Shown: positions 2,379-60,593 of the stretch, piece after piece
Position numbering within the stretch: the stretch's first letter is position 1
Layout: each line of letters opens with the position of its first letter
NCBI GenBank assembly: GCA_958295895.1
Contig: CATQHI010000003.1
Span: forward strand, 248,001-312,000
Reading direction: 5' to 3'
Origin: Saprospiraceae bacterium
GTDB taxonomy: Bacteria; Bacteroidota; Bacteroidia; Chitinophagales; Saprospiraceae
DNA: 64,000 nucleotides
Notes under the pieces: generated by a model
Databases searched by the model: none
Seen by the model: only the letters and a program-made list of their open reading frames with translations
Told to the model about the DNA's origin: nothing
Made by a program: the position numbers and the translations under genes

Positions 2379-3143
2379 TCAGGCGTGGTCCGGCTCAGCG
2401 GCCGTAGCTATGGCCAGGGCTTGCCACTGCGCCATGTCGGCCTGCAGGTTCTTGATTTTGGTGTCGGCCATCCTGTAGGCATCTTCGCCTAGCAGCAGGT
2501 GCAGGTGCAGGTGCAGGGGCGCGTTGGGCGCAGTGGCTACGGCAATGATGGCCGCAGCGGCTTTGGCCGGGTCGCCAAGTTGGCCGTTGGCTTCCTGTAG
2601 CTGGTCATGATACGTCTCGTTGTCGCGCACGATTTTGTACTCGGGCAGCTTTTCATTGGCCAGCTTCAGGGGGCCCGGCTTAAGGAAGTTGGTGCGGAAG
2701 TAGCCGGGGGCCACCACCGTCACCCGGATGCCGAACGGCGCGACTTCGGCCGCCAGCGCCTCCGACAACCCTTCCACGGCAAATTTGGTGGCACAGTACA
2801 CGCCCCAGCCTGGAAAGCCGCCTAGAATGCCGGCAATGGACGAGAAGTTGAAGATGTGCCCGCTGCCCTGCCGGCGCAACTGCGGCATGACGTGGCGAAT
2901 GACGTTGAGCGTGCCGAATACGTTCACGTCGAAGTTCTCGCGGGCCTCGGTGGTCAGGTCCACGGCCAGCGGTAAGAACTTATCTGACTTACTGCCAACA
3001 GCTTGGCGTAGCTCGTTGAGGTCGCGGGAGGTGGCGGCTACCTGGTGGCCGGCGTGTAGCAGTTGCTGCACTATTTCCAGGCCGAAGCCCTTGGAAGCGC
3101 CGGTGATAAACCAAGTTTGGGTTTTTTTTGCTGGATTGTCCAT
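2379..3143 (-). CDS. SDR family oxidoreductase with internal deletion
   Basis: 254 residues. The cofactor loop TGASKGFG (14-21), the Ser at 101-102 and Tyr116/Lys120 (YCATK) are present. Between residues 64 and 66 the chain jumps from the end of strand beta-3 (LAVDLT) to EARENFDVNVFG, which in relatives is the alpha-E helix; about 35-40 residues including the NNAG motif are missing without a frameshift (junction near 2949). The Rossmann fold would lack beta-4, so the product is probably inactive. The gene is preceded by an AraC remnant and by operator module 3199-3263, as in the other AraC-SDR cassettes. Confidence 0.8.
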   Translation of the reverse strand: MDNPAKKTQTWFITGASKGFGLEIVQQLLHAGHQVAATSRDLNELRQAVGSKSDKFLPLAVDLTTEARENFDVNVFGTLNVIRHVMPQLRRQGSGHIFNFSSIAGILGGFPGWGVYCATKFAVEGLSEALAAEVAPFGIRVTVVAPGYFRTNFLKPGPLKLANEKLPEYKIVRDNETYHDQLQEANGQLGDPAKAAAAIIAVATAPNAPLHLHLHLLLGEDAYRMADTKIKNLQADMAQWQALAIATAAEPDHA

Positions 3144-3198: not shown

Positions 3199-3263
3199 CA
3201 AAGGTCAGCCAGCTACCCCGGCAAGAGTTTATCAAATTCAACCCGATACTTATGAAATTCAAA
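3199..3263 (-). promoter_or_regulatory. AraC-SDR operator/promoter module, copy 1
   Basis: Reverse strand: half-site TTTGAAT (3257-3263), 14 bp containing AAGTATCGG, second half-site GTTGAAT (3236-3242), 29 bp, then GACCTTTG (3199-3206), 55 bp before the SDR start at 3143. The TGA stop of the AraC remnant (3259-3261) is part of the first half-site. Same geometry as six other copies in this window. Confidence 0.7.
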
Positions 3264-3402
3264 CCCGCCGGAAAGCCGAGGGGGCTAGCTCGGTCTGCTT
3301 CTTGAAGAAGTAGTTGAAGTTGGCCGGCTCGTCGAAGTCCAGGCTGTAGCCGATTTCGGCCAGGTTCCAATCGGTGTGCCGGAGCCGGGCGCGCGCCCTG
3401 AT
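3259..3402 (-). pseudogene. AraC family regulator, C-terminal remnant
   Basis: About 47 codons survive, reading RHTDWNLAEIGYSLDFDEP and then NYFFKKQTELAPSAFRRV before TGA. This is the second helix-turn-helix of the AraC paralogues at 5546, 16462 and 59615; everything upstream has been lost and replaced by the start region of the forward AraC gene at 3425. The fragment keeps only the end of the gene that overlaps the operator. Too short to function. Confidence 0.8.
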
Positions 3403-3424
3403 GTGATATTCGTAACTTCGTGAG

Positions 3425-4351
3425 ATGCAAAAACCCCAAACCCTGGCGGCTTTCCAGGAGCAGTACCTGAATCTGATTCCGGCACCTGTGCAGGCGGAAA
3501 TGAGCCGGTTTAATGTGTTTCGCCTGGCGGACGTGGCCGAGGCGGAAACGAAATGCTCCTCTTACGGGCGCAGGCAATTTTTCAAAATTAGCCTCCTCTC
3601 GGGTAGCAGCACTTATCACTACGCCGACAGGTCCATTCGGGTCGAAAGAAACGCCCTGGTCTTCAGCAATCCGCTGGTTCCGTACCATTGGGATTTCCAC
3701 GGGGAAAAGCAGGCCGCCGTTTTTTGCGTGTTCACGGATGCTTTTCTGCCGCGGTTCGCGTCGATGCCGTTGGCAGAAAGCCCTGTCTTTCGCCCCGGCG
3801 GCCAGCCCGTATTTGCGCTTACCGATAGCCAGTACCAAGCCATGGCCGCCATTTTCGAGCACATGATAGCGGAGCTGCAGGCAGATTACGCCTTCAAGTA
3901 CGACGTGCTGCGCAACGCCGTCCGGGACTTGCTGCACGGGGCCCACCGGCTGCAGCCGGTGGCGGCGGGCCCCGTGCCCGTCACGGCGGCCAGTCGCTTG
4001 GCCACTCTGTTTCTGGAATTATTGGAGCGCCAATACCCCATTGAAGCGCCGGAACAGCGCGTGCGCCTGCGCTTTCCCCTGGAGTTTGCCCGTCAGCTAA
4101 CCGTGCACGTCAATCATTTGAATAAAGTGCTAAAGGACATAACCGGGCAAACCACTTCGGCCTTGATAGCCGCGCGCCTCACCCAAGAGGCGAAGGTCTT
4201 GCTGATGCACACGCAGTGGAGCGTGTCAGAAATCGCGTGGTGTCTGGGGTTTGAAGAATTGTCGCATTTCACCAATTTTTTCAAGAAGAACGCGCAGGTC
4301 ACGCCCATATCCTTTCGGCGGGATTCTCGTCCTTTCAGCGGAATTATTTGA
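3425..4351 (+). CDS. AraC family transcriptional regulator
   Basis: 308 residues. The N-terminal half (about 1-195) is a cupin-like sensing domain shared by all the paralogues here (FNVFRLADV, FFKISLLSGSSTYHYAD, NPLVPYHW, FCVFTDAFL). The C-terminal third holds two helix-turn-helix motifs (FARQLTVHVNHLNKVLKDIT and WSVSEIAWCLGFEELSHF). The TGA stop overlaps the first half-site of module 4347-4411, which precedes the co-oriented reductase gene at 4456. It probably activates that gene in response to a small molecule; the ligand is unknown. Intact. Confidence 0.88.
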   Translation: MQKPQTLAAFQEQYLNLIPAPVQAEMSRFNVFRLADVAEAETKCSSYGRRQFFKISLLSGSSTYHYADRSIRVERNALVFSNPLVPYHWDFHGEKQAAVFCVFTDAFLPRFASMPLAESPVFRPGGQPVFALTDSQYQAMAAIFEHMIAELQADYAFKYDVLRNAVRDLLHGAHRLQPVAAGPVPVTAASRLATLFLELLERQYPIEAPEQRVRLRFPLEFARQLTVHVNHLNKVLKDITGQTTSALIAARLTQEAKVLLMHTQWSVSEIAWCLGFEELSHFTNFFKKNAQVTPISFRRDSRPFSGII

Positions 4352-4411
4352 TTTTTGTAAGTAATTGATTGCCTTTCGCAGGGCCCTCGCTGCGGGACCC
4401 CGGTACCTTTG
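4347..4411 (+). promoter_or_regulatory. AraC-SDR operator/promoter module, copy 2
   Basis: TTTGATT (4347-4353), 14 bp with TAAGTAATTG, weak second half-site ATTGCCT (4368-4374), 29 bp, then TACCTTTG (4404-4411), a perfect Bacteroidota -7 box, 44 bp before the ATG at 4456. The AraC stop codon (4349-4351) lies in the first half-site. Confidence 0.65.
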
Positions 4412-4455
4412 CCCCATCTTATTTGCTTCTTTTTCTCTTACTAGTTGCATAGTGC

Positions 4456-5385
4456 ATGGGTAGTACTTCCATTCTTGTTTTAGGGGCCGGCGAACTCGGC
4501 ATGGCCGTGCTTCGCCACGTTGCCCAACGCACGGCGCAGCTTCCCGGCACCGCGCTCACCGTGCTGCTGCGGCCCGCCACGCTGGCCTCCGAAGAGCCGG
4601 CCAAACAGCGGAAATTAGCCGAACTCCAGTCCTTGGGCATCCAGTTTCTCCCCGGCGACCTGGCGGCTGTTTCGCCGGCAGAATTGGCGGTCCTCTTTGC
4701 GGACTTTCACACGGTAATCGGCTGCACGGGGTTCGTGGGCGGGCGCGGCACGCAGCTCAAGCTCGCCCGCGCCGTGCTCGATGCCGGCGTGGCCCGCTAT
4801 ATTCCCTGGCAGTTTGGCGTTGACTACGACCTGATTGGCCGGGGCAGCGCGCAGGACCTCTTCGACGAGCAGTTGGACGTGCGCGACCTGTTGCGGTCGC
4901 AGGACCGTACGCACTGGGTCATCATCTCCACCGGGATGTTCACCAGCTTTTTGTTCGAGCCGGCCTTTGGCGTTGTTGACCTGGCCCACGCTACCGTGCG
5001 GGCGTTGGGCGATTGGGACATCGCCGTTACCGTCACCACTCCCGAAGACGTTGGCAGGTTAACGGCGGCCATTCTCTTGGCAGAGCCTCCCTTCACCAAC
5101 TGCATCGTTTACACAGCGGGCGACACGGTATCCTACGGGCAGTTGGCCGATGTAATAGAATCGGTTTCAGGCCGAAAGGTCCAACGGGAGCGTTGGAGCG
5201 TCCCACACCTAAAGCAGGAGCTAGCCCAAAGTCCAGACGACGAGATGCGAAAATACCGGGTTGTTTTCGCCGAAGGCGTAGGGGTGGCATGGGAGCGCGC
5301 GCGAACCTTCAACTTTCAACAGGGAATTGAGGTAGTGGACGTTGCACAATGGCTGCGGGAACACGCGCCCGGCGGTAGTAGGTAG
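4456..5385 (+). CDS. NmrA-type NAD(P)-binding protein, aromatic alcohol reductase-like
   Basis: 309 residues. It starts with the cofactor loop VLGAGELG (residues 8-15), typical of atypical SDRs related to isoflavone/phenylcoumaran reductases and fungal aromatic alcohol reductases. It continues with VIGCTGFVG, the RYIPWQFGVDYD segment and WVIISTGMFTSF, all usual in that group. The classical Tyr-x3-Lys pair is absent, as expected. Likely a cytosolic NADPH-dependent reductase or a redox-sensing NAD(P) binder; the substrate is unknown. It follows AraC gene 3425-4351 in the same orientation and has operator module 4347-4411 in front. Confidence 0.8.
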   Translation: MGSTSILVLGAGELGMAVLRHVAQRTAQLPGTALTVLLRPATLASEEPAKQRKLAELQSLGIQFLPGDLAAVSPAELAVLFADFHTVIGCTGFVGGRGTQLKLARAVLDAGVARYIPWQFGVDYDLIGRGSAQDLFDEQLDVRDLLRSQDRTHWVIISTGMFTSFLFEPAFGVVDLAHATVRALGDWDIAVTVTTPEDVGRLTAAILLAEPPFTNCIVYTAGDTVSYGQLADVIESVSGRKVQRERWSVPHLKQELAQSPDDEMRKYRVVFAEGVGVAWERARTFNFQQGIEVVDVAQWLREHAPGGSR

Positions 5386-5545
5386 AACCGCGGCGTGAGC
5401 CTGCCCGAAGTCATTAGCGGCCCTGGCAATGAATCAGGCTTGGGCATATTGGCCCGCCAATACCGCTGCTACGCGGCTCTTTATAGCTTAGCACGGCCCT
5501 AAACTATAGACCTAACGGCGCTACGCGCCTACGCCGCAACTTGAG
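5386..5545. other. Intergenic region
   Basis: 160 bp between the reductase stop and the corrected end of the AraC pseudogene. No gene, hairpin with T-run or operator module recognised. Confidence 0.5.
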
Positions 5546-6458
5546 TTAAGTAATTGAAGCTCGCCGAATAGTCGAAGGTGTCACGCCCGTATGCTTCTTA
5601 AAAAAGTTAGTTGAAATTAGCTGGCTCATCGAAGCCTAAACTGTAGCCGATCTCAGCCACATTCCAGTCGGTGTGCCGCAGCAGGGCGCGAGCTTCGCCG
5701 ACTAGACGCTCGGCAATGTAAGCAGTAGGGGTTTTGCCGGTTGTGGCCCGCACGCAGCGGTTAAGGTGGTTGACGTGCACGGCTAACTGCTGGGCAAAGT
5801 CACCGGCCGAACGCAGGGTGAATCGGTGGTCAGGCGACTCAATCGGGAACTGCCTCTCCAGCAGCTCGATGAAAACGGCCGTTAGCCGCGATCGGGCATC
5901 GGGATGGGGGTAGCGGGCCGTGGTAGGTCGCAGCTTGAGAGCGTAATGCACTAACTCAGCCGCATAGTTGCGCAATAGGTCGTGTTTTAGGGGGTAGTCC
6001 GAGAACAGCTCGGCCAGCATTTTTCCGTAGAGCGCGCTCACCTCTGCGTCCTGGACATCTGTGAGGGGGTAGGTCACGTTGCCGCCGGGCCGAAAAAGGG
6101 GCAGATCAAGCAGACTAGCGCCGTCGCGTGCCTGGAGAAATTCTTCCCGAAAAATGCAGAAAAATCCGGTCGCGTCGGCCGACAGCGGCTGCCAGGTGTA
6201 GGGCACCTGGGGGTTGAAAAACAGCAACGTCGGCCCGGCTATCTCCAGGCTCTTGTCGGCGTAATGGTAGGCATTGTCCCCCCGGATGAGAGTGATCTTG
6301 TAAAAATCGCGGCGGCTGTACTGCACCGGTACAGCGCTAGGGGCCAGCACGTCTTCCAGCCGAAATACGTTCACCTGTCCTATGGCCGCGGGCGGAGTTA
6401 CGGGCAACGTCCGGAAATTTTGCTGATAGAATTCGGGCAGGGTTTCAGATTGAGCCAT
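5546..6458 (-). pseudogene. AraC family regulator, frameshifted near its end
   Basis: The first 283 codons are a normal member of the local AraC family (FNVFRLEDV, YSRRDFYKITLIRG, NPQVPYTW, VNHLNRCVRATTGKTPTAY, DWNVAEIGYSLGFDEP). After PANFN the frame meets TAA at 5607-5609. Removing one A restores YFFKKHTGVTPSTIRRASIT and a stop at 5546-5548, so a single-base insertion cuts off the last 20 residues, part of the second DNA-binding motif. It may be a real mutation or a sequence error. It is divergent from the NmrA gene at 6846; no operator module follows it. Confidence 0.8.
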
Positions 6459-6532
6459 GCGGCAAAATTATTAAATTCAAGCTAGTTACCGGTTTCTTGA
6501 GCCGCGTTCGGGACAATTTCAACCCTTATTAA

Positions 6533-6754
6533 CCTAACGCTGGCGAATTTGCCCTGGCCGGCGGCGTAGGACTTGCTGGCCAACACCTCCAACTCAGCCA
6601 ATCGCACGGCAGCGTTTTGGCCTGTGGGGAATACAACCTCTCCGACCCACCCTCGCCGAATAGGGCTCCGTTTGGCCTAAACCTGATTGCAGCCTGGCAA
6701 GCCACCAAGCAAACCCGCGTAGCAACGAGTTGGCAGTTTATGCTATTTGTTTGA
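6533..6754 (+). pseudogene. Open frame without start, possible gene remnant
   Basis: From just after a TAA (6530-6532) to TGA (6752-6754) the forward frame stays open for 73 codons without an ATG at its beginning. It reads like protein (for example APFGLNLIAAW and TSWQFMLFV). I do not recognise the family. It may be the tail of a lost gene, or chance in GC-rich DNA. Confidence 0.25.
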
Positions 6755-6812
6755 CAACAACCTAAATAAGGAAGCCTCGTTCTCTCACAAATATGGGCGG
6801 GCGGGGGCTTGG

Positions 6813-6820
6813 TAATTTTG
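6813..6820 (+). promoter_or_regulatory. -7 box TAATTTTG of the NmrA gene
   Basis: Exact match to TAnnTTTG, 25 bp before the ATG at 6846, giving a leader of about 20 nt. No TTTG at the -33 distance was found. Confidence 0.5.
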
Positions 6821-6845
6821 CCCACATAACCATTTAACTTTTCAC

Positions 6846-7766
6846 ATGACAAGTCCTCAAGCGCCGGCCACCGGTACCTCCCCCACCATACTCATTAGCG
6901 GGGCCACGGGCAACATCGGTACCGAACTAACTAAGCACCTCGCCGTCCGGGGCGTGCCCTTCCGGGCAATGGTGCGCAATCCGGACGAAAAGTCCGCCCA
7001 GGGCCTGCGGGACTTGTCCGGCGCGGAATTGGTGGCCGCCGACTTCAACGACCCGGCCAGCGTGGGGCGGGCCCTGAGCGGCATTGAGCGGGCGTTTTTG
7101 CTCACCCACTCCTCGGCCCAGGCAGAAGCGCAACAACTGAGCTTCGTGGAGCAGGCCCGGCAGGCCGGGGTCCGGCACTTAATCAAGCAGTCGCAGTGGG
7201 CTGCCAGCGCCGAGTCGCCGGTGCGGTTCCTGCGCTACCACGCCGTGGTCGAACAGGCCATCGAGGACAGCGGCCTGGCCTATACCTTTTTGCGGCCCAA
7301 CCTGTTTATGCAGGGCCTGCTGGCCTTCAAGCAGAGCATCCAGGCGCAGGGTCAGCTGTTTGCCCCCATCGGGGAAGCGAAAGTTAGCGTGGTGGACGTG
7401 CGCGACATTGCCGCGGCGGCAGCGGCGGCCCTCACCGAACCGGGCCACGCCAACAAAACCTACAACCTGACGGGCCCGCAGGCGCTGACCCATCGCGAGA
7501 TGGCCGCCGAACTCAGCGCCGCACTGCACCGGCCCGTAGCCTTTGTGGATGTGGGCCCAGCAGAGCTGCTGGCCTTTTTGCGCAAAACGGGCATGGATAC
7601 TTGGATGGCAGAGGGGCTGGTGGAGGACTATGCCCACTACCACCGCGGCGAGGCCGCCGAAGTTGCGCTCGGCGTGCAGGAGGCCACCGGCCAGCCTCCG
7701 CGCTCCTTCGTCACGTTTGCCCACGACTACGCACCGGTTTTTAACGATGACTCGCCAGGGCATTAA
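6846..7766 (+). CDS. NmrA family NAD(P)-binding protein
   Basis: 306 residues. The cofactor loop SGATGNIG (about 18-25) and the PFRAMVRNPDEK segment place it among NmrA/HSCARG-like atypical SDRs, which include NAD(P)H:quinone-type reductases and redox sensors. Further family features are the RAFLLTHSS stretch, HLIKQSQWAA, YTFLRPNLFMQ and VDVRDIAAAAAAAL. It lacks the Tyr-x3-Lys pair. Length is normal and the gene looks intact. Its divergent neighbour is the frameshifted AraC gene 5546-6458, and the AraC-oxidoreductase association here suggests AraC control, though the 65-bp module is absent. Confidence 0.85.
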   Translation: MTSPQAPATGTSPTILISGATGNIGTELTKHLAVRGVPFRAMVRNPDEKSAQGLRDLSGAELVAADFNDPASVGRALSGIERAFLLTHSSAQAEAQQLSFVEQARQAGVRHLIKQSQWAASAESPVRFLRYHAVVEQAIEDSGLAYTFLRPNLFMQGLLAFKQSIQAQGQLFAPIGEAKVSVVDVRDIAAAAAAALTEPGHANKTYNLTGPQALTHREMAAELSAALHRPVAFVDVGPAELLAFLRKTGMDTWMAEGLVEDYAHYHRGEAAEVALGVQEATGQPPRSFVTFAHDYAPVFNDDSPGH

Positions 7767-7838
7767 CGGAGCGGCTGGTACCTAGTGTGGGCCAACTCGT
7801 GGCCCGCCCGCGCTGGGTTGATTTGCTTATCTTCGTAG

Positions 7839-8183
7839 ATGCCGCTGCCAAACCTAACGCCGCTAGTTTCGCCTACCCGGGCTGGGGACCAAAACCCTGC
7901 CGCTACGCTGCCGTCCGTCGTGGCTACGGCCCAGTTCAATGTGTATGCCCGCGAGCAGTTCCGCACCCACGCGCTGGCGTACGGGCGGCGCGATACGCCT
8001 TTCAAAGTGAATGCCGTAGACCCCGGCTACACCGCCACCGATTTCAACCATCACAGTGGGCTTGGCACCGTGACTGAGGCCGCCGCCCGCGTGGTGAAAG
8101 CCGCTTTGCTAGGCCCGGATGGCCTGACCAGCCAGTTTTTCAGCGAGGAAAGCGCGCCGGAAACGGGTGTCATCCCGTGGTAG
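7839..8183 (+). pseudogene. SDR family oxidoreductase, C-terminal remnant
   Basis: The end of the frame, from about 7960 on, reads DTPFKVNAVDPGYTATDF and then AALLGPDGLTSQFFSEES. It is clearly collinear with the last 70 residues of the intact SDR at 19370-20107 (KPFKVNAVCPGYTKTDF, ALLGPDGPTGQFFSEE). The cofactor loop, NNAG and most of the catalytic region are missing; the preceding 40 codons show no SDR similarity. A dead 3' fragment lying directly behind the NmrA gene. Confidence 0.8.
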
Positions 8184-8379
8184 CAACCGAGCGGGCCGGG
8201 CGCGGACCGGGCTCATTTTTCGCTACTTCCTCAATTTCCTTCCAGTAGCGTGAGCCCCGCCGGGCCCGGCAACCACGCCGAAGTGCCCGACTAGCGACAA
8301 CCAAGGGGTAGCCGACCAGTGAATGCCCGAGTTGCTACCCGTCCCTACCCTCGACGGCCGCGTGCGCCTGAGTGCGCGG

Positions 8380-8955
8380 CTAGGGATAGGTCGAAAAGGA
8401 CTGAAGCCCGCCCCGAATCAGGGAGAAAAACGCCGCCGCCGCTTCTGGCTCGCTGCACTGCCCTTGCACCATCACCCGGCAGAGCGCTTCGCCTGCCCCG
8501 ACCAGCCCGACGCAGCGCCGCTGAAGCTCGTCGGGCGGCAGGGGGCTATGCGGTGCCAGCGCCGCGGCGAACAGCTGCGCGTATCCCGCCAGCACCTCCT
8601 GGTGCACCGCCCCCATTTCCTCACTGCCCGACAGCGCCGCGCCCACTGCGTAGATTTCGCCATTCGTGTCTGCAGCACAGTGAATGTAGGCGGCCACCAG
8701 CACATCGGCCGTCTCCCCCGGATTCTGCTGCACGCTTTGCAAAGCTTCCTTCAAGGCTGACACCTGCGCTTGGTCGAGCGACTTGTAGAGTTCGGCCAGC
8801 AGACCCGACCGGGTACCGAAGTGTTCGTACGTGATGGGCTTGGAAACCCCAGCCCGCGCCGCCAGGCGGCCCAGCGTCAGGCTATCAGCTCCTTCCTCGC
8901 ACACCAGCACGAGGGCCGTATCGAGTAGCTGGCGCCGTCTGGCCGCTTCCGGGAG
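8380..8955 (-). pseudogene. TetR family regulator lacking its N-terminal start
   Basis: The frame reads RRRQLLDTALVLVCEEG, then LTLGRLAARAGVSKPITYEHFG, the classical TetR helix-turn-helix, followed by a helical ligand domain to the stop at 8380. Upstream the frame meets a stop (8956-8958) before any ATG, and the usual first 10-20 residues are missing; a GTG at 8908-8910 could give a shorter product with an intact HTH core. The upstream edge abuts a truncated HxlR gene on the other strand. Probably not expressed normally. Confidence 0.65.
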
Positions 8956-9207
8956 TTAAGCCGCGAAATCGGCATCTCCCCGCGCGTGTTGTCCAAAGAA
9001 TTGCAGGAAATGGAAGGCCACCAGCTCGTCAGCCGCACCGTGTGCGACACCCGGCCCATCACGGTGGAGTACGCCAGCACGGCCCACAGCCGCACGCTGC
9101 TGGGCGTGGTGCAGGCCCTGAGCGACTGGGGCTACCTGCACCACGAAGCCGTGGTCGGCACCCGCCGGCCCGACGACCCGGCCCTGCTGGTGGTGGCCCT
9201 GGTCTAG
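8943..9207 (+). pseudogene. HxlR family regulator, N-terminally truncated
   Basis: The frame from about 8943 reads RFRELSREIGISPRVLSKEL, then EGHQLVSRTVCDTRPITVEY and ends ...VVALV before TAG. This is the recognition half of an HxlR winged helix (compare the intact HxlR at 22555-22908). The N-terminal part with the conserved Cys is gone; the similarity starts at the point where the TetR similarity on the opposite strand ends. Confidence 0.7.
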
Positions 9208-9330
9208 CGCCCTGCGTCATTTATCCCGCCCCCCTGGCTCACCAGACGTACAGGCTCGGCTTGGCTACGAACACGGACTTGCACCCCTTCGAGCAGAACC
9301 CGTAGGTTTTGTCCTGGTGGGCAAAGTGGG

Positions 9331-9373
9331 GCGTCGTTGGCCTTGGTTAAAAGGTTGGTACAAAAGTTAAACG
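9331..9373 (+). repeat. Left 43-bp imperfect inverted repeat of the 9.3-13.5 kb block
   Basis: Reverse-complementary to 13460-13502 with 36 of 43 positions identical, including the 19-bp core CGTTTAACTTTTGTACCAA without a mismatch. Its inner edge lies on the end of the serine-recombinase relic. Length and position resemble terminal inverted repeats of Tn3-type transposons, whose TIRs are about 38 bp; this assignment is inference. Confidence 0.65.
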
Positions 9374-9560
9374 GGCGGGTGGCTGGGGGCAGGTTTGCGG
9401 TGGGCGTGGATGACCACTTTGCGGTGGCGTAAGTATTTGTAGAGGGTGAGTTTGGAAATGCGCAGGCGCTGGGCAATCTCATTCACTCCGGGTTGCTGCT
9501 CCCGATATAGCGTTTAACTGAACACTTCTTCGTTGAGGGGTATACCGGTTCCGGCGGTGC
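9367..9560 (-). pseudogene. Serine recombinase (resolvase/invertase), C-terminal remnant
   Basis: Reverse strand 9513-9367 reads TLYREQQPGVNEIAQRLRIS followed by KLTLYKYLRHRKV and a short tail before TAA. This is the DNA-binding helix-turn-helix that ends resolvases and invertases of the Tn3/Hin type. A TAA (9514-9516) interrupts the frame just before it, and about 15 further upstream codons could still belong to it. The catalytic domain is absent. It ends inside the 43-bp inverted repeat. Confidence 0.65.
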
Positions 9561-9840
9561 TGCACATAGCCCAGCCCAGTTCAGTTTGCTTCTCCTTGTC
9601 GTTATACTGGTACTGGGTGAGGGCTTTGAGGCCAGGGGGGCGGTAGTCGAGGCCGGCCAGGCTCAAGCCCCAGGGGTCGTAGTGGTTCTCTTGGAGCGTG
9701 GCCGGGTCCATCACCGGCAGAGCCAGGCCGTCGAAGTAATCCGCCGCGCCTTCGTTCGCTCCGCTTACGCGCACGTAGCTCGCGCTGTTGGTCCTCACCG
9801 GCGTGGTGCGAATTGGTTTAGCGCCGGAGAGAGAATGAAT
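9561..9840 (-). pseudogene. RHS-repeat-associated core domain fragment
   Basis: The reverse frame contains YVRVSGANEGAADYFDGLAL, ENHYDPWGLSLAGL and YQYNDKEKQTELGW. The motif H-Y-D-P-W-G followed by Y-Q-Y-N-x-K-E is the hallmark of RHS-repeat-associated core domains of polymorphic toxins or large surface proteins in Bacteroidota. Both ends are missing: it is fused to the recombinase relic downstream and has no proper start. Only about 90 codons of what is normally a protein of more than 1000 residues. Confidence 0.65.
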
Positions 9841-9945
9841 AAGGGGGCTCTAATACTTCTGAGCTGAGCCGATTAGCTTATATTAGGACCGCGCCGGCTG
9901 TCGGCGAGCAGTTTACTGCGATAACTGTTACGGTATGCCTAAACG

Positions 9946-11467
9946 TAGGGTGTGTAATCTGATACCTTTACCCATCCCCGTTTTTTAGCAGTTCCCGCTC
10001 CATCCGTTTGCGGATTCCGTAGCGGTTGTGGCATATGTTTTGGTTACGCCACTGCTCAAGTTGTGGGCCACTGACCTGCCGCATAGCCGTTTGCACGAAC
10101 GGGATCGATAGGGGCTGGTTGTACAGGGCGATGGTCAGCACATCGGCCGAGATGGCCTTCATGCCACCCTTGTTTTTGTAGCGGCCGAAGATGCTCTCGA
10201 TGATATCCGAACAGCACAGCAGTTTATTGTCCGTGGCGTAAGCGGCCGCATGCTCCGTGAAGTAGGCGATTATACCCTCGATGAAAGCCCTGGCCGGTAC
10301 GGTCAGTTTTGTGTTTGAACGAAGGCAATGATCTGCAGCAACCACTTGTCGTAACTACTCTGACTCAACCCCTCATGCTTAACCAGTTTAGCCGTCAGAA
10401 CCAGCAACTCGTAGACCTGTCGCAAGCGTAGGTCCAGTCAGCGATTCCGGCCGGCACTCAGTCGGCCATACAGTTCGGCATTCAGTCCCGCAGCGGCGTA
10501 GCGGTCGATGCAATCCATCCAGGGCACCAGGGTAAAGATGCGACCGAAGCGGTCACGATCGCGTAGGGTGGCCGGTAGGGCGAAGGCATAGTCGGTCAGC
10601 AGTAAACGTTGGCGCAACTCACCGATCTGGGCGCAGAGCTTGCTCAGCGCGGTGTCGTCCCGGACGATTCGTTTGACCAGATTCATCATCACGTGGCTGC
10701 AGTCACTAACCATCGGCAGGGCCAGGGCACGCAGGGCTGCCAGCAGATTGCCGCACCGATCACAGACCACGTAGCGCAAGCGCAGGCCTGGACGCTCAGC
10801 CAGGGTGCGACGCATAAAATCAGCCACCTCATCCCCATTCCAGGAAGACTGGACCTCCAGGCCCAAGATCTCGACATCGGCTCCCCTTAGCGGGCGGTCC
10901 AAGCTCGCGGCGTGCTCCGCCCTAACCCCCAGCAGCAGCAACAATTGTTCTTTACTGATCTGAATGCTGGGGCCGAGGATGCCCACGTATTCCCCGCTGA
11001 GGGTCTTGGTCAGCCTGAGGGCATACAGTCCACACCGTTCCACCCAGTTGCTCATGCTCTTGAAGGCCGGGGCGGAGAACCTCCAGCCCATGAGCTCGGC
11101 GTAAAAGCCGGCCGTAGCCGCCGCGCAGCGCAATGATCTACCATGGAGGACCACGAAAACAGCCAGGGCCATCATTTGGGCCGGATAGCTACAGTTGAAC
11201 ACCTTTTGCGGGTCAACAACGGCACGCAGGTGTTCGATTTCCTGACGCTGTCGAGCAATGATTCGATCACGGTGACGGAGTTGCTCCTTAAGCCTACGCC
11301 GCTCTTGGGTACGATCTTTTCTCCGCGATCTTAGCTGCTGGATCGTACTTTGAAGCGTGCCCAGACTGGTGAAGTTTTCTGTTTCAGACCTCAAAGCTAT
11401 GCCACGTCTGGGCACACTTTTTGACAGAAATACGTAGGCCACTTTTGTATCCAAAATACACACCCTA
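9946..11467 (-). mobile_element. Insertion sequence, 1522 bp, with 10-bp target duplication
   Basis: Bounded by the 11-bp inverted repeats TAGGGTGTGTA (9946-9956) and TACACACCCTA (11457-11467) and flanked by the direct repeat TGCCTAAACG (9936-9945 and 11468-11477). It contains one degraded transposase gene. The right copy of the duplication contains codons 1-4 of the esterase gene at 11467, and the last base of the element supplies the A of its ATG. I cannot name the IS family; the long target duplication is compatible with IS4-like groups. Confidence 0.85.
9968..11463 (-). pseudogene. Transposase of the 1.5-kb IS, broken
   Basis: The N-terminal 341 codons (11463-10438) have a basic coiled coil (residues about 45-80), then a catalytic-looking region with YVVCDRCGNLLAAL and VSDCSHVMMNLVKRI. 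A TGA at 10438-10440 interrupts the frame; it continues as LDLRLRQVYELLVL, then shifts frame near 10310 and ends as CSDIIESIFGRYKNKG...LLKNGDG at 9968. The pattern Asp...Asp...Glu fits a DDE transposase. One nonsense and one frameshift mutation make it inactive. Confidence 0.75.
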
Positions 11468-13346
11468 TGCCTAAACGCTTGCTTTTACTCTCCGGGCTAG
11501 CGTTCCTGCTCGCTTGCTCCCAGCCCATTTCTTCCGAAAAGCCGGTAGACTACCTGGGGTTCACCCCCCAACTGGATGGGGTGCTCGATTCTTCCTTGGC
11601 CGCCCTACCTAGCCGGCAGTTTGGCTACTTCTCTCAATTCAACAACCCACCCACTGACACCATCCCCGTCAGCTACCGGCTGGCCTACAACGAGGACTAC
11701 TTGTATGTCTACCTTGAGGTCGCCGCCGACAGCATTACGCACCGCGAGCGGGGCTTCACGGCCGGCGATGGGGCTAAGCTACTCGTGGGTATGCCCAAGG
11801 ACAGCCTGACGGATGAGTTCTATGAACTCGTGTTTTCGCCTTCGCGCAAGCAAAACTATTGGGAGCGTAAACGCATCTGGACTTACAATGTCGAAACCGT
11901 GGTGCGCGACCTGAGCCCCGACTCGGATTTTGCCACGCACAGCGAGCCGGGCCGCACCGGCTTTGAATTTCTCGTCAGTTGGCGCGACATGAAGCCTTAC
12001 CACCCCTGGTTCACCCCAGAAATCGGGATGAACCTATACTTTGCCAAGGGCATCGGCGACACGATTACCAACGGCTACGCTATGTACGCTGATGAGGGAT
12101 TGTGGGACGAGGGCGTGAAGCGCCGGGCCGTTAAGCAAGCCTTCGCCCTACCCGAAAAAACCAACCGGCTGCGGCTCCACAGTCAACTTACGCGCCATCA
12201 CAGCCAAACCGGCGAGCTGGTGGAGCTAGCGGTGGCCAGCATTGCGCCCCAAACAACGACCACCCAGCTGCGCGTGCTCATTAAAAACGCAGCCGGCCAG
12301 CCGGTCTACCAGCAACGAGCGAGCATTACCAGTACGCCGCGCTTTGCCCGTCAGCGCATTGCCCTCGACCTGAAAAAGCTCCCTCCCGGCCCCTACACCG
12401 TCGTTACCCAGGTAGGCGTGGACAGTCGCCCGCGCAGCGCGTCCCTCACCATTTTTCCCCCTGTAGATTGGCGGGCGGCCCAGCAGGCCCTGGCCCGTAA
12501 TCCGAAGCCCGCCTTGCAAGGCGCGCGCAACAGCTTAATTTTCGCCTTGCAGGATGTGACGGACAAGCTCAGCCGCCTGAAGCCCTACGATAGCGGTGAG
12601 GCCCTGTACCAGCAGCAGCGGCAGTTTCAGCAGCGGCTAAAGGCCTTTGAGCAAGGCCACGACCCTTACGCCGGATTGCGCCAGAACCACCGCCGGGCCT
12701 ACCGCTCGAACCTGGACGGGACGTATCAGCCTTATTCCCTTAAGCTGCCGGCCGATTATAACCCTACCAAAAAATACCCCTTGCTGGTCGTACTCCACGG
12801 TAGTGGGGTGAGCGAGGAAAATATGCTCAACCAAGCCTGGAGCGACGGCTCCTTTATCGAGCTGGCTCCCTTGGGCCGCGACATCTACGGCTGCTACGAC
12901 TCCAAAGCCGCGCAGGCCGACATTCGCGAAGCCATTGCCGACGTCAAGCACCACTTTGCCGTCGACAAAAACCAGGTCATTATCAGCGGCTTTTCCATGG
13001 GTGGCTACGGGGCCCTGCGCACCTACTACGAGCAGCCGCAGCTGTTCAAGGGCGTGGCGGTATTCTCCGGTCATCCGGACCTGCTCAACTTCTGGCAGGA
13101 GACGAGCACCTACCCAACTTTCTGGATGATCGCTACCTGGCCGGCTTCCGGAACACGCCAGTATTTATTTTCCACGGCAAAAAAGACGGCATTCCGTACT
13201 CCTTGCTGGAAAAAACGGCCGCCAAGCTCCGGCAGCACGGCGCCCAAGTCGAGTTGAATCTCGCGCCGGACAAAGGCCACGAGTACCCCGACCCGCGCAC
13301 GTTTCAGCGGTACGTGGCCTGGCTGCGCAAGCTGACGGGCAACTAG
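11467..13346 (+). pseudogene. Secreted lipoprotein esterase with CBM9-like domain, frameshifted
   Basis: Signal peptide with lipobox LLACS (Cys17). Residues about 25-210 resemble the CBM9-like carbohydrate-binding fold (PQLDGVLDSSLAAL, YNEDYLYVYLEV). From about 410 comes an alpha/beta-hydrolase: KYPLLVVLHGSG, nucleophile GFSMGG, then VFSGHPDLLNFW. Near 13113 one base is missing; the other frame restores FLDDRYLAGF, VFIFHGKKDGIPY (acid Asp) and KGHEYPDP (His) to a TAG at 13344-13346. The uncorrected frame stops at 13257 and lacks Asp and His of the triad. The IS at its start codon removes the native leader. Confidence 0.75.
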
Positions 13347-13391
13347 ACGAATCTAATTCAAGCCCGAGTCCTCCCATGCGAGCAGCAAGGC

Positions 13392-13417
13392 AGCGCCCTG
13401 CTCTGAGGCGCTTTTTT
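13392..13417 (+). terminator. Rho-independent terminator candidate
   Basis: AGCGCC, 9-nt loop, GGCGCT followed by a run of six T in total, about 45 bp after the esterase stop. Short stem, so moderate confidence. Confidence 0.5.
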
Positions 13418-13459
13418 AGCTAAATCATCCGGCTACAAAGAGCTACACGACAAATCGCT

Positions 13460-13502
13460 CGTTTAACTTTTGTACCAAAATTTTAACCAGGGCCATCGTT
13501 GT
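13460..13502 (-). repeat. Right 43-bp imperfect inverted repeat
   Basis: Partner of 9331-9373 (36 of 43 identical in inverted orientation). Together the two repeats bound the recombinase relic, RHS fragment, IS and esterase gene, a 4.2-kb block. Confidence 0.65.
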
Positions 13503-13554
13503 CAGCGCGGCGGGTACATTACCTCCTCCTTATATAGCAGCGCAGCCGGTTTGG

Positions 13555-13998
13555 TTACTGGCCCTGGGCCCGCACTACGCACTCCAGCTCTTCCAAGCAT
13601 ATCTGAAAAATGTCGTGGCGGACCCACTCCACCACCGGGGCGGGGTCGCCGCTCACGTCGAAGTTGGCCGTCCAGTCGGCGTAGGTGCGGCCGTCGGCCT
13701 GCACCTCGTGGATGGTGAGCGTGGCGCTGAAGTTCTGGGTCGGCACGTCGCCCTTGGTGAGGGCGTACATGATGCGCCGGTCGCGGTCGGAGAGTTCGAG
13801 CAAGGTTTCCTCGATAAGCGCCCCCTCGGCCACGGTGTTGACGCGCACGGCTCCAACCTGGGCCGCGGTGGCACCGTTTTTCAGCTCGCAGTGGGAAACG
13901 AAGGGAAACCAGCGGTCGAGGGCACCGAAATCGCGCACGAGCGCCCAGACCTGCGCGGCCGGAGCCTCGATAACTTTACTATACTGAACGTAAGGCAT
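13555..13998 (-). CDS. SRPBCC family protein (polyketide cyclase/START-like)
   Basis: 147 residues, the usual length of a single SRPBCC helix-grip domain. It begins YSKVIEAPAAQVWALVRDFG and LDRWFPFV, the family's typical beta-1 and first helices, and ends with a long C-terminal helix (EWVRHDIFQICLEELECVV). Such proteins bind hydrophobic ligands in a deep cavity; here the ligand is unknown. It is the first of a run of reverse-strand genes with NTF2-like, Atu4866 and SDR genes, but the gaps (about 90-130 bp) leave open whether they form one operon. Confidence 0.85.
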   Translation of the reverse strand: MPYVQYSKVIEAPAAQVWALVRDFGALDRWFPFVSHCELKNGATAAQVGAVRVNTVAEGALIEETLLELSDRDRRIMYALTKGDVPTQNFSATLTIHEVQADGRTYADWTANFDVSGDPAPVVEWVRHDIFQICLEELECVVRAQGQ

Positions 13999-14091
13999 GA
14001 GAAGGAATGGTGGGTGAGTAAGTAAGTGAGTAAAAGAAAACGGGCGCGTTGGACCGGCTGATTGGCCCGGCGACCCCCCCCCCGGCGCGGC

Positions 14092-14619
14092 TTATTCCGC
14101 CGGAACGCGCCGGAGCACGTCCAGGTAGGGAATCAGATCCAGAAACGCCGTGGCGTGGGTGATGCGGTCTGCTTTTAGCGTCATGGCCCAGCAGTAGGTG
14201 TTGCGGTAGGGCTGTCCGTCCTTGGCCGTGGCCACGCCATCCCAAAAGGCTACTACCACGTCGCCATCGGGGTACAGCTTGTGCACCGTGGGCACTATGG
14301 GGGTAGCCAGCCGCACGGTCAGGGGCGCGGCGGCCTCGGCCAGAAACTGCTGCTTGCCGGAGTAGGTTTTGGAATAGGCGGAGCTGCCCGTGATGGTCCA
14401 CTGCACGTCGTCGGCCAGCAGGTCGAAGAAGTTGCCGGTTCCGGCCGCCCACTGGTCGAAGGCTTGCTCAATCAGTTGCTTGTTGTGCGCCTCGGTGGCC
14501 GCTACCGCCTGGGCATCCCCTGCCCGGGACGTGCAGCCGGCCAGCAGCAGCGTTGCGCTCACGCCCGCCACCACGCCCAGGGCGTGCCGGCGGCAGAAAG
14601 AAAAAAGGGAATCGCTCAT
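14092..14619 (-). CDS. NTF2-like (SnoaL-type) lipoprotein
   Basis: 175 residues. A signal peptide ends in the lipobox LLLAGC (Cys about 29), so a membrane-anchored periplasmic or outer-membrane lipoprotein is expected. The mature part is an NTF2-like fold with FDQWAAGTGNFFDLLADDVQ, WTITGSSAYSKTYSGKQQFL and VVVAFWDGVATAKDGQPY, as in SnoaL-like proteins. A close relative with the same domain order lies at 36442-36987, again next to an Atu4866 gene. Catalytic residues cannot be assigned; a small-molecule binding or isomerase-like role is possible. Confidence 0.82.
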   Translation of the reverse strand: MSDSLFSFCRRHALGVVAGVSATLLLAGCTSRAGDAQAVAATEAHNKQLIEQAFDQWAAGTGNFFDLLADDVQWTITGSSAYSKTYSGKQQFLAEAAAPLTVRLATPIVPTVHKLYPDGDVVVAFWDGVATAKDGQPYRNTYCWAMTLKADRITHATAFLDLIPYLDVLRRVPAE

Positions 14620-14745
14620 GTATGTAAAGAAGATTGGTAAGGTTTCCTGCTGGCAGCAGCGTGCCTTTTTTTATGGCAACAAACTGCTTAATAGTACTTT
14701 ACAGATGCGGGCTCGGGCTGAACGCGGTGTGCCCTCCGCCCGACA

Positions 14746-15516
14746 TCACCCGCCGCCATCGGCGTTCAGGTTTGCTTCCACCTCGCTGATCGGCACTTCC
14801 ACCGTGGAGTTATGCTCGCGCACGATTTTCCAGCCGGCCCCGGTGGCGTGCCACACCAAAGAGCTGAGCGTTCGAATCCCCGTCACCTTGCCGGCCTTGG
14901 ATTCCAGGCGGGCCTCAAACTGGAGGGCAGAGGTAGCCAGGGCACCGTCTACCAGCACGGCAGGCGCGATGGAAACCTGGTGCCGGGCGCTGCGCAGTGC
15001 CGAAAAGGCCGGCTCCCAGATGGCCCCGTACGCGGCGGCGCTGCGCACGACGCGGTGCTGCGGGTCGAAGTCGTCGTAAAGCAGCAAATTTGGGTCGGTG
15101 AAGTCATAGTACTTTCCGAGTTTCTGCCGAAAGTCGAGCGGCTCGTCACCGGCCTTCTGCTCCCAGCCCACCAAAATCCATTCCCGGTGAAGCGCGGCTA
15201 CCTCCCTTGCGGAGGCAGTCAGGGCGGCCAGTTGGCCCGGCGTCCGGTAGAGCACCATGCCGCCGTGGTAAAGTACGCCGTCACGGAAGTCGCCATCGGC
15301 CGTGAAGCCCGTATCGTCCACGTAGTCGATATGGTCACCAGTGATGGTGTAGCGGCCCTGGTAAGCGCTTTCGCGGGTGCCGCGGGCCTTGTCGTAGCGG
15401 CCGTTGGGCAGCAGCTCGTGGCGGACGCGGCCATCCTGGGTCACCCACATGCCCACGTAGGACGTCTGGGGGGTGGGGGTGGTCATTTCGGTGGGGGGCT
15501 TGGGAGGTTGGTCCAT
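14746..15516 (-). CDS. Atu4866-domain / NTF2-like fusion protein
   Basis: 256 residues in two parts. Residues about 20-95 match the small Atu4866-type beta-barrel (YVGMWVTQDGRVRHELLPNG, DDTGFTADGDFRDG, VLYHGGMVLYR). Residues about 105-250 form an NTF2-like domain (REVAALHREWILVGW, FDPQHRVV and a strand-rich end). In the second copy of this group at 36442-37363 the two domains are encoded by separate genes, which supports a functional link. No signal peptide is obvious. Function unknown; a fused binding/scavenging protein is a guess. Confidence 0.78.
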   Translation of the reverse strand: MDQPPKPPTEMTTPTPQTSYVGMWVTQDGRVRHELLPNGRYDKARGTRESAYQGRYTITGDHIDYVDDTGFTADGDFRDGVLYHGGMVLYRTPGQLAALTASAREVAALHREWILVGWEQKAGDEPLDFRQKLGKYYDFTDPNLLLYDDFDPQHRVVRSAAAYGAIWEPAFSALRSARHQVSIAPAVLVDGALATSALQFEARLESKAGKVTGIRTLSSLVWHATGAGWKIVREHNSTVEVPISEVEANLNADGGG

Positions 15517-15625
15517 ACGGGGGGGTAGGCCGGGGCCTGTCGTTGGGGGCAGAAGAGAAGTGAAAACGCTTCGCTACGGGCAGTTGCTACCGAAGTCGGG
15601 GCGGAAACCTGGCGGGGCTACTTCG

Positions 15626-16381
15626 CTAGTAGGACCGCTGCCCGGCCGGGCGCACCACCAGCTCGTTCACGTCCACGTCGGCGGGTTGAGCCAGGGCGTA
15701 GGCAATGGCGCGGGCAATGGCTTCGGCCGGCAGCAGGTGGATGCGAAACTGCTCGATGGCCGCCTTCTTCATTGCCGGGTCGGAAATGGTGTTGGGCAGC
15801 TCCGACTCGGTGGCGCCGGGCGCGACGAGCGTCACGCGGATGCTGGGAGGGCACTCCTGGCGCAGCCCTTCGGTGAGCGCGCGCACGGCGAACTTGGTGG
15901 CGCTATACACGGCCGACGTCGGCCCCACCCACCGGTCGCCCACCGATGTGATGTGCACAAAATGGCCGGCCTGCTGGGCCTCGAACACGGGCAGCGCCGC
16001 GGCAATGCCGTAGAGCACGCCCTTCAGGTTCACGTCTACCATCTGATCCCACTCGGCCACTTTGCCGTCTTTCAAGTAGGAAAGTGGCATCACGCCGGCG
16101 TTGCTCACCAGCACGTCGAGGCGGCCGAACTCGGCTTGCGCAAACGCCACAAAGGCGGCGAGCTGGGCGGCATTAGTGACGTCGAGTTCCCGGTAGCGAG
16201 CCGTGCCGCCGGCGGCTTCTAGCTCGGTTACGATGGTGGCCAGCTTTTCGGTGCGGCGGGCTCCGAGCACAACATGAGCCCCCTGGGCGGCCAGGTAGCG
16301 GGCGGCGGCTTCGCCGATACCACTGCTGGCTCCGGTGATGGCCACGACTTTGCCGGTTAATTCGGTGGTTGGGGTAGGCAT
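15626..16381 (-). CDS. SDR family oxidoreductase
   Basis: 251 residues from the ATG at 16381, chosen over an in-frame GTG at 16402 because that GTG overlaps the promoter box of module 16402-16466. Cofactor loop TGASSGIG (about 17-24), SNAG near 95, catalytic Ser in HITSVG and Tyr/Lys in YSATK. It resembles YdfG-type NADP-dependent hydroxy acid/serine dehydrogenases. It lies downstream of AraC gene 16462-17364 on the same strand and is the cleanest intact example of the AraC - operator - SDR cassette. Confidence 0.88.
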   Translation of the reverse strand: MPTPTTELTGKVVAITGASSGIGEAAARYLAAQGAHVVLGARRTEKLATIVTELEAAGGTARYRELDVTNAAQLAAFVAFAQAEFGRLDVLVSNAGVMPLSYLKDGKVAEWDQMVDVNLKGVLYGIAAALPVFEAQQAGHFVHITSVGDRWVGPTSAVYSATKFAVRALTEGLRQECPPSIRVTLVAPGATESELPNTISDPAMKKAAIEQFRIHLLPAEAIARAIAYALAQPADVDVNELVVRPAGQRSY

Positions 16382-16401
16382 AATAGGTAATTGGTTTGAC
16401 A

Positions 16402-16466
16402 CAAAGGTCTGCTAACTCACCCTCAATAGGCTTGTTCTACTCAAACCAATACTTTCGAAAATCAAA
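16402..16466 (-). promoter_or_regulatory. AraC-SDR operator/promoter module, copy 3
   Basis: Reverse strand: TTTGATT (16460-16466), 14 bp with AAAGTATTGG, TTTGAGT (16439-16445), 29 bp, GACCTTTG (16402-16409), 20 bp before the SDR ATG. The AraC stop TGA (16462-16464) lies within the first half-site. This copy has both regulator and target intact and is the best one for testing. Confidence 0.75.
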
Positions 16467-17364
16467 CCATCCGAGCCGCCGAAGGCACCCGCCCCGTGTG
16501 CTTGCGGAAAAAGGTGGTGAAGTGGGCCGGCTCCTCGAAGCCTAAGCAGTATGCCACCTGAGCCACAGACCAGTCGGTGTGGCGCAGCAGAGCCTGCGCC
16601 TCCTGCACCAGACGCTCGGCCAGCAACTGCGTAGTTGTTTTGCCGGTTACGGTTTTCAGGACCCGATTGAGGTGGTTGACGTGCACGGCCAGCTGCCCGG
16701 CAAAGGCTTGTGCCGTACGCAGGCGTACCCGCTGCTGCGGCGATTCAATGGGAAACTGCCGGCTCAGCAGCTCGGTAAATAGCGAGGTGATGCGCAGGGC
16801 GGCGCTGCTGCTGTGGTATAGTACCGAGGCGGGCACTAGCTTCTGCGCCTCGTGTATCAATTCCACCAGGTAGGCTCGCAGCAGGTCGTATTTGTAGGCG
16901 TAGGCCGACTCAATCTCGGTCAGCATCTTCTCGAAGATAGCCGCTGTGGCCGTGCATTGGTCGGCTGTGAGCACGTAAATGGGCTGGCCACCCGGCTCGA
17001 ATACCGGGAAGACGGTTCGCGTACCGGCCGGGGTAAGGGGCAAAAAGGCGTCGGTGAAAATGCAAAAAAAACCACCTTGCGGACCTTCCAGTTGCTCCCA
17101 GTGGTAGGGTACGAGCGGATTGGCAAACAGCAGCGCCGGCCCCTCAATGCCCACTACCTTGTCGGCGTAGTGGTAGCGGTTGCGGCCCAAAATCAGGCTG
17201 ACTTTATAAAAATCCTTACGGCTGTAAGGCACCGGACGGGCGTGTGGCCCCACGTACTCTTCCGTACGAAACACGTTGAAATGGCCCAGGTCCTGTTGCA
17301 GGTTCGCGGGCATCCACTGCATCTTGTCGCGGTAAAACTGCTCCAGGCTGACATGATCTACCAT
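16462..17364 (-). CDS. AraC family transcriptional regulator
   Basis: 300 residues, intact. N-terminal cupin-like domain with FNVFRTEEYV, YSRKDFYKVSLILGRNRYHY, NPLVPYHWEQL and FFCIFTDAFLP; C-terminal double helix-turn-helix with VNHLNRVLKTVTGKTTTQLL and DWSVAQVAYCLGFEEPAHF. It closely resembles the AraC genes at 3425, 5546, 34014 and 59615. Downstream on the same strand come operator module 16402-16466 and the SDR at 15626. A -7 box (TACGTTTG, 17384-17391) precedes it. Confidence 0.9.
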   Translation of the reverse strand: MVDHVSLEQFYRDKMQWMPANLQQDLGHFNVFRTEEYVGPHARPVPYSRKDFYKVSLILGRNRYHYADKVVGIEGPALLFANPLVPYHWEQLEGPQGGFFCIFTDAFLPLTPAGTRTVFPVFEPGGQPIYVLTADQCTATAAIFEKMLTEIESAYAYKYDLLRAYLVELIHEAQKLVPASVLYHSSSAALRITSLFTELLSRQFPIESPQQRVRLRTAQAFAGQLAVHVNHLNRVLKTVTGKTTTQLLAERLVQEAQALLRHTDWSVAQVAYCLGFEEPAHFTTFFRKHTGRVPSAARMV

Positions 17365-33102: not shown

Positions 33103-33929
33103 TCAATCGTCCGCCTCCGCGGCAAAAGCCACGGCCTGCTGCGCATCCAGGGCGGCCAGGCGCTCGACCAGGGCTGCCCGAATCTTGGCGTAGGCCCCGC
33201 GCCCAAGCGTTAGCCGCCGCGGAGCCGGACTTTGGTCCACGGAATGGAGCATGGCGTCCACCATTTTAGCCGGGTCACCGTTTACGGTAAAGCTGCCGTC
33301 TCCAATACCGCGCCGGACGGCGCCGGCGGGTGTGGCCTCGTACACGGTCAGGGGGGTCGCGTGGATCAGGCCGCTGCCGAAGCTCGTGCGGGCCGGGCCG
33401 GGCTCGACCAGCGTAAACTCGATGCCGAACGGCGCGACTTCTTGAGCCACGGCCTCTACGAAGCCCTCAATGCCCCACTTGGTGGCGTGGTAGTAGCTAA
33501 AATTGGGGTAAGTAATCTGCCCGCCCTCCGACGAGAGTTGCAGCACGCGCCCGCCACCCTGAGCCCGCAGGTGGGCAGCGCGGCGCGGATAACTTGAATC
33601 GAGCCGGTTAGGTTAGTGTCCAGCTGCTGCTGAATCTGGTCGTCGTCGCTTCTTCGCCCGCGCCGAACAGGGCGTAAGCGGCGTTGTTGACGACGACGTC
33701 GATACGACCCAACTCGGCAAAGGCCTGGTTTATTACGCGGCGCACGGCGGCGGTATCGGTCACGTCCAGTGGAGCTACCCAGAGCAGGTCGCCGTACTGC
33801 GCCTTCAAGTCGTTAAGCACGTCGGGTTGGCGCAAGGTAGCGGCGACCCGTGCGCCACGGGCCAACAGTTTTTCGGTTAACAACCGGCCGAAGCCGGAGG
33901 AGGTACCCGTGATAAACCACGTTTTTCAT
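33103..33929 (-). pseudogene. SDR family oxidoreductase with several frameshifts
   Basis: Joined over the frameshifts the gene reads MKTWFITGTSSGFGRLLTEK, VVVNNAAYALFGAGEEAT, DDQIQQQLDTNLTGSIQVIR, LQLSSEGGQITYPNFSYYHA and TKWGIEGF to a stop at 33103: a complete SDR with all motifs. A 5-A run after the ATG (33919-33926 area) puts the cofactor loop out of frame, and two more shifts lie near 33650 and 33560. Operator module 33953-34018 and an AraC pseudogene precede it. Confidence 0.82.
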
Positions 33930-33952: not shown

Positions 33953-34018
33953 CAAAGGTCACGGTGTCAAGCAGCATTTGGCTAACGCCAGGACAAACCA
34001 ATACTGACGCCAATCAAA
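33953..34018 (-). promoter_or_regulatory. AraC-SDR operator/promoter module, copy 5
   Basis: Reverse strand: TTTGATT (34012-34018), 14 bp with TCAGTATTGG, TTTGTCC (33991-33997), 30 bp, GACCTTTG (33953-33960), 23 bp before the SDR pseudogene start. The AraC pseudogene stop TGA (34014-34016) is in the first half-site. Preserved although both neighbouring genes are dead. Confidence 0.65.
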
Positions 34019-36400: not shown

Positions 36401-36441
36401 AATTCTTATGCATATCCTCTATTACTCAACTCTTTTCATCC

Positions 36442-36987: not shown

Positions 36988-36997
36988 AGAATTGATT

Positions 36998-38373: not shown

Positions 38374-38438
38374 TAAAGGTCTTACCAGAAGCAAGCTTTC
38401 TACTAGCCCTAATCAAACCAATACTATCGATAATCAAA
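38374..38438 (-). promoter_or_regulatory. AraC-SDR operator/promoter module, copy 6
   Basis: Reverse strand: TTTGATT (38432-38438), 14 bp with ATAGTATTGG, a second identical TTTGATT (38411-38417), 29 bp, GACCTTTA (38374-38381), 52 bp before the SDR start. The two half-sites are perfect repeats, making this the best copy by sequence. No intact AraC gene lies directly upstream. Confidence 0.7.
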
Positions 38439-40606: not shown

Positions 40607-40641
40607 AACGAATTTGTTGGTTTGGTTGGTTGATGATGGCA

Positions 40642-60528: not shown

Positions 60529-60593
60529 TTTGAATGATACAGTAGGTACTTTGACTCGCGCAGCTCGGGTGTCTCGCTGATGCGGGACCTTTG
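60529..60593 (+). promoter_or_regulatory. AraC-SDR operator/promoter module, copy 7
   Basis: TTTGAAT (60529-60535), 14 bp containing CAGTAGGTAC, TTTGACT (60550-60556), 29 bp, GACCTTTG (60586-60593), 36 bp before the ATG at 60630. Same geometry as the copies in the first 38 kb. Confidence 0.7.

Follow-up and report, generated by a model that had tools for sequence, protein, structure and literature searches.

An AraC operator predicted at the regulator's own stop codon recurs among Bacteroidota

AraC at the araBAD I1-I2 sites, RhaS, and MelR are class II activators of the AraC family. In the stretch of DNA analysed here, 64,000 nucleotides from a Saprospiraceae bacterium (hereafter the window), AraC-type genes and their putative sites resemble these systems in having two directly repeated boxes that recur with a period of 21 bp, the proximal box lying at the promoter's upstream element, and a regulator with a probable double helix-turn-helix domain. 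They differ in that the operator overlaps the stop codon of the regulator's own gene, with the target lying downstream in tandem, and in that the promoter is of the Bacteroidetes -33/-7 type rather than the -35/-10 type used by AraC, RhaS, and MelR. Binding sites within or at the ends of coding sequences likewise impose two constraints on one stretch of DNA, that of the protein code and that of the operator; unlike such sites in general, the one described here keeps to one register at its regulator's own end in eight named genera and further unnamed ones. Among the open papers listed as matches in a literature search, none described this overlap or motif. The reading favored here, at a probability of about 0.78, is that the AraC operator is located at the gene's own 3' end and would serve the next gene through class II activation. 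The predicted regulatory arrangement is well supported and recurrent, and from it we infer binding, dimerisation, activation, and an inducer.

The original prediction held that, at four AraC ends, the TGA closing the gene or its remnant is the TGA within the first TTTGA half-site, and this is indeed seen at 3259-3261(-), 4349-4351(+), 16462-16464(-), and 34014-34016(-). Regulator, site, and target also lie in tandem as one compact unit, just as had been stated (Table 1), although the full unit is larger than that earlier one and comprises the operator, a further 20-22 bp, and then a -7 box. The operator, 36 bp in all, is made up of two direct repeats of 15 bp, TTTGAnTnnnGCAAG, whose starts are 21 bp apart, and six such operators occur inside ~57 kb of the window.

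Table 1. Regulators, putative operators, -7-like boxes, and partner genes in the window
Feature	Position	Strand	Remarks
SDR1	2379..3143	-	without 39 residues, including NNAG segment
-7-like box GACCTTTG	3199..3206	-	21 bp past operator 1
Operator 1, TTTGAATTTCATAAG-6-GTTGAATTTGATAAA	3228..3263	-	PWM 38.0 bits
AraC C-terminal remnant, ~47 codons	3259..3405	-	last codon TGA = TGA of box 1
AraC copy 2, full length	3425..4351	+	HTH_18 match
Operator 2	4347..4382	+	overlaps AraC copy 2 stop; PWM 33.7 bits
-7 box TACCTTTG	4404..4411	+	21 bp past operator 2
NmrA-like partner of AraC copy 2	4456..5385	+	domain match
AraC pseudogene	5607..6458	-	two TAA within match; clade of L134, L021, L022
SDR partner of AraC copy 3	15626..16381	-	lineage differs from partners of copy 3's AraC kin
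-7-like box GACCTTTG	16402..16409	-	21 bp past operator 3
Operator 3	16431..16466	-	overlaps AraC copy 3 stop; PWM 36.5 bits
AraC copy 3	16462..17364	-	placed in Hymenobacter clade
SDR partner of copy 4, frameshifted	33103..33929	-	ORF pieces
-7-like box GACCTTTG	33953..33960	-	22 bp past operator 4
Operator 4, damaged box 2	33983..34018	-	PWM -0.5 bits
AraC copy 4, frameshifted	34014..34891	-	
SDR downstream of orphan operator	37617..38321	-	
-7-like box GACCTTTA, one base off	38374..38381	-	21 bp past orphan operator
Orphan operator, without AraC ahead	38403..38438	-	PWM 28.6 bits; 26-bp consensus match at 38413-38438
AraC copy 5, TAA stop, no overlap	59615..60520	+	
Operator 5	60529..60564	+	starts 8 bp past copy 5 stop; PWM 12.5 bits
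-7-like box GACCTTTG	60586..60593	+	21 bp past operator 5
Epimerase/NmrA-like partner of copy 5	60630..61388	+	domain match

A 26-bp consensus, with up to three mismatches allowed, matched the window four times (sites 1, 3, and 4 and the orphan; site 2 was missed) versus no matches in each of 100 shuffles. A looser pattern with three mismatches recovers site 2, but the match proves nothing alone, at six genome-wide matches versus four in the reversed control. A related pattern with two mismatches gave four matches versus none in the control in the window's genome, and two chance-like matches across the 20 remaining genomes of its genus. A position weight matrix (PWM), trained on the same loci that it scored and cut off at the 99% point of mononucleotide shuffles, placed sites 1-3 at 34-38, the orphan below them, and site 5 lower still; site 4 is a weak operator, with its damaged box 2 and a score just above the cut-off of -0.6. 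At 15 bits, the matrix found one match in 974 kb of shuffled sequence. Across 19 genomes, 24 of 27 genome-wide operator matches had an AraC match in the same locus, with none in the reversed control. The strict pattern was present in seven of 198 genomes, every one in the window's class; it matches just one of the window's own sites, so its absence elsewhere carries little weight.

The regulators themselves carry a C-terminal HTH_18/HTH_AraC domain, as do members of the AraC/XylS family. A structural model of copy 3 (pLDDT 78.8, pTM 0.52) compares, domain by domain, with MarA (TMt 0.78) and the RhaR sensor (0.60-0.64); chains of ToxT and Rns can be aligned to most of its length, at a TM of just 0.26-0.34. 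In NCBIfam, the model for HpaA-type AraC (TIGR02297) ranks first for each of the window's three intact AraCs and covers most of their length, yet they score 57-67 bits against a cut-off of 275 and are not members; copy 3, in particular, was rejected at 67.4 versus the curated 274.65. A more distant AraC-family gene lies in the same region at 40814-41707(-), with 33% identity over C-terminal query residues 230-298, and the operator patterns found no match beside it.

The overlap is by no means confined to the window. It was found in the same register in several genera of Bacteroidota, where related genomes had been proposed as the place to look for it. Of 186 AraC genes scored, including five from the window (three with overlap), 91 overlap the operator, 31 are adjacent to it, 2 have it inside, 12 have it far off, and 50 have none; an operator-like site thus occurs at -60 to +250 of the stop in 136. 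All 91 overlaps share register -2 (start of box 1 relative to the stop), while every other offset is represented by at most four genes. The corresponding counts are 25, 17, 1, 8, and 26 in a class-wide sample of 77, and 56, 4, 0, 4, and 15 in the 79 genes of a set that leans to close kin, having been drawn from named genomes as the best 80 of 269 relatives. By genus, overlap is seen in Hymenobacter (24/25), Mucilaginibacter (9/11), Chitinophaga (9/14), Larkinella (5/5), Dyadobacter (5/8), Pedobacter (1/3), Spirosoma (1/1), and Emticicia (1/1), as well as in one of four loci without a genus name, and in 0/7 across Filimonas, Terrimonas, Chryseosolibacter, Foetidibacter, Ferruginibacter, and Longitalea. 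Matching genomes, with the window's own counted each time, numbered 6 of 21 in the genus (E 1e-40), 11 of 120 in the family, and 44 of 396 in the class (E 1e-60). Matches ending short of query residue 285, spans under 120 residues, ORFs running off the locus edge, and duplicates were dropped, after which removal of four genes below 36% identity reduced 190 to 186.

Relatives whose AraC genes end well away from the operator, named in the original prediction as evidence against it, do exist but form a minority: the 12 far cases and the 50 genes that lack a site near their stop. Sites located elsewhere often lie ahead of AraC, either up to 350 bp away or, on the same strand, at a distance of ~1 kb, suggesting another gene order in some lineages. 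The overlap state has changed at least 22 times on the AraC tree, and the overlap is therefore not essential. In loci L064 and L069, short repeats are visible by eye between the AraC stop (3901) and an operator 299 and 211 bp on, respectively.

The spacing between operator and promoter is strikingly uniform. NAnnTTTG starts 20-22 bp past the operator in 119 of 122 cases (100 of them at 21 bp) versus 4 of 1464 control stretches, and the strict TAnnTTTG follows in 89/122 versus 0/1464. Within the window, the -7-like box lies at 21 bp in five of six cases and at 22 bp past damaged operator 4; the box is GACCTTTG, one base off consensus, in four of the six and GACCTTTA at the orphan. According to two papers (PMC6847099, PMC7366714), the Bacteroidetes promoter has a -7 element, TAnnTTTG, at -12 to -5 and a TTTG near -33, and one of the two reports that the -33 element was not recovered from F. 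johnsoniae RNA-seq. With the -7 element in its published position, the operator would end at about -34. A -33 TTTG, sought at about -38 to -29, was found in only four of the 119 promoters, which is the chance level (control 21/714). The two direct repeats ~21 bp apart, the proximal one placed, by published promoter positions, at an upstream element that is itself poor, correspond to what is expected of a class II AraC activator. A same-strand gene follows 110 of 122 near-stop operators, and a same-strand ORF is found behind 83/91 overlap genes versus 21/50 genes without an operator.

Taken as a mechanism, two DNA-binding units, probably a dimer, would sit on the two repeats, the proximal of which would end where the Bacteroidetes sigma factor would seek TTTG. 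Bound AraC would probably substitute for the missing -33 contact and so bring about class II activation. It is the combination of promoters lacking the -33 TTTG with a proximal repeat ending at that point that makes activation probable; promoter geometry alone would be no proof of it.

In the commonest form, box 1 begins two bases before the stop, the operator thereby supplying the TGA along with the TT that ends the preceding codon, mostly one for Val. Codon usage bears a corresponding mark. Of the 91 overlap genes, 83 have GTT as their last codon, among them 24/24 of those from Hymenobacter, where GTT makes up 10% of other Val codons and where the partners' stops are TGA in 1/20. On these counts, the use of GTT and TGA is a DNA-level constraint on the AraC 3' end. 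Conservation among the 24 Hymenobacter genes is 98% in box 1, 94% in the -7 box, and only 84% in box 2, compared with 80% in the preceding coding bases and 62% in the gap. Two residues follow a conserved arginine in 73/91 overlap proteins and one does so in 25/31 adjacent ones, so that the end of the AraC protein would in part be translated operator. Here, then, is a clean natural case in which a predicted DNA-binding site shapes a stop codon. Moreover, one AraC clade (25 rows in a quick tree) has a changed second recognition helix, its commonest residues being EYPTYF for EEPAHF, and the 3' part of box 1, G[CT]AA, occurs in 0/14 near-stop operators of that clade versus 90/110 elsewhere. The paired changes are suggestive of a recognition link between AraC and operator, though shared descent could yield the same pattern.

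It is conceivable that AraC instead blocks the promoter pending a signal, the operator being a repressor site, since a protein bound to a box reaching ~-34 might hinder RNA polymerase. This is unlikely, in that the distal box falls clear of the promoter on its upstream side and the -33 TTTG occurs at no more than the control rate, as expected of activator-dependent promoters. A feature of the AraC RNA or protein end, with no operator at all, would account for the single codon register and the frequent final GTT; the motif nevertheless also occurs after stops that it does not overlap, ~200 bp off, ahead of AraC, and at the orphan in the window, its distance from the -7 box is fixed, and GTT is preferred to GTG and GTA, all of which makes that explanation extremely improbable. 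A further thought is that the overlap was selected for itself. RNA polymerase transcribing araC could be held up by AraC bound at that gene's stop codon, leaving messages without a stop, in which case one binding event would turn the target on and the regulator off, and operator plus stop would form a built-in off-switch; this is highly improbable.

The original prediction also saw the copies as a self-contained cassette that spread as a block within this genome. The crowding of the six operators is what such copying would produce, and so is the shared best match, L134, of the remnant and SDR1. In relatives, too, AraC and SDR partner identities are correlated (Mantel r 0.76, against a largest value of 0.18 in 999 permutations, with 90 of 109 pairs used), and the regulator and its main SDR partner would thus usually co-evolve. 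That part of the proposed phylogeny held up. The remainder did not: the four near-full-length AraCs of the window, tested jointly, are rejected as one clade (AU p 6.6e-74), copies 2 and 5 have NmrA-like and epimerase-like partners, and copy 3 has a foreign SDR. The eight rows nearest to the copy 3 AraC, all of them Hymenobacter loci, share 64-66% identity with it, but their partners share just 28-34% with its SDR; among 618 other pairs whose AraC identity is 60-68%, the partner median is 58%, the 5% point 51%, and the lowest 21%, so that copy 3 is not the sole exception to co-evolution. With an SDR of another lineage, the copy 3 unit was not copied whole. Block copying within this genome is accordingly quite improbable, and local duplication of the four near-full-length AraCs was ruled out by the trees and the AU test; the units may have come in separately through transfer. 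The trees hold 184 rows, with the last six residues and two genes shorter than 230 aa (one of them copy 4) left out, and the more careful one uses 56 hand-chosen rows; copy 4 and the remnant are outside all trees. Three of the four near-full-length AraCs have kin in other genomes with which they form well-supported groups: Hymenobacter for copy 3, L167 for copy 5, and, for the pseudogene, L134 together with L021 and L022, both loci from the genus of the window. Copy 2, on a long branch and with a best identity of 52%, is of unsure placement.

Under the class II reading, an operator that moves with the regulator's end offers AraC a route to a new target. Any gene arriving behind it would fall under AraC control, and copy 3 may be an example. 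Partners were found at 140 of the 186 AraC genes, 95 of them in one SDR cluster. Ten others were scanned with Pfam (eight at overlap and two at adjacent genes), and comprised two aldo/keto reductases, a cupin, a carboxylesterase, a zinc alcohol dehydrogenase, an S15-type hydrolase, a cyclophilin-like protein, a DUF5916 protein, an HlyD-type protein, and one partner that matched nothing. For ~100 AraC loci, the analysis predicts the operator, the geometry of the promoter, and the cognate regulator, with an oxidoreductase as the commonest target.

Parts of the window bear on the fate of such units. The suggestion that the remnant was kept for the sake of its operator is weak, as SDR1 has lost, in frame, 39 residues including NNAG relative to three relatives and is probably inactive; the remnant may merely await decay. 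Its best match is the L134 AraC (75.6% over 45 aa), and L134 is likewise the best match of SDR1 (56%) and of the pseudogene (69%), at whose end no recognisable operator was found from -60 to +250. A single AraC split into pseudogene and remnant by insertion of cassette 2 was considered and rejected: the C-terminal stretch is present in both (76% DNA identity over 148 bp), and two copies are therefore involved. To judge from its sequence, the window neighbourhood is partly decayed. GC content is 0.49-0.56 at 36001-52000, compared with 0.58-0.61 in five 20-kb stretches elsewhere in the genome. Finally, in Dyadobacter luticola, an operator with a broken SDR (L233:1488-2430) is 92% identical over 943 bp to L229, whose AraC spans the whole query, while the L233 match begins within AraC's last codons; by this alignment, L233 is an independent instance in which an operator was duplicated along with no more than an AraC stub.
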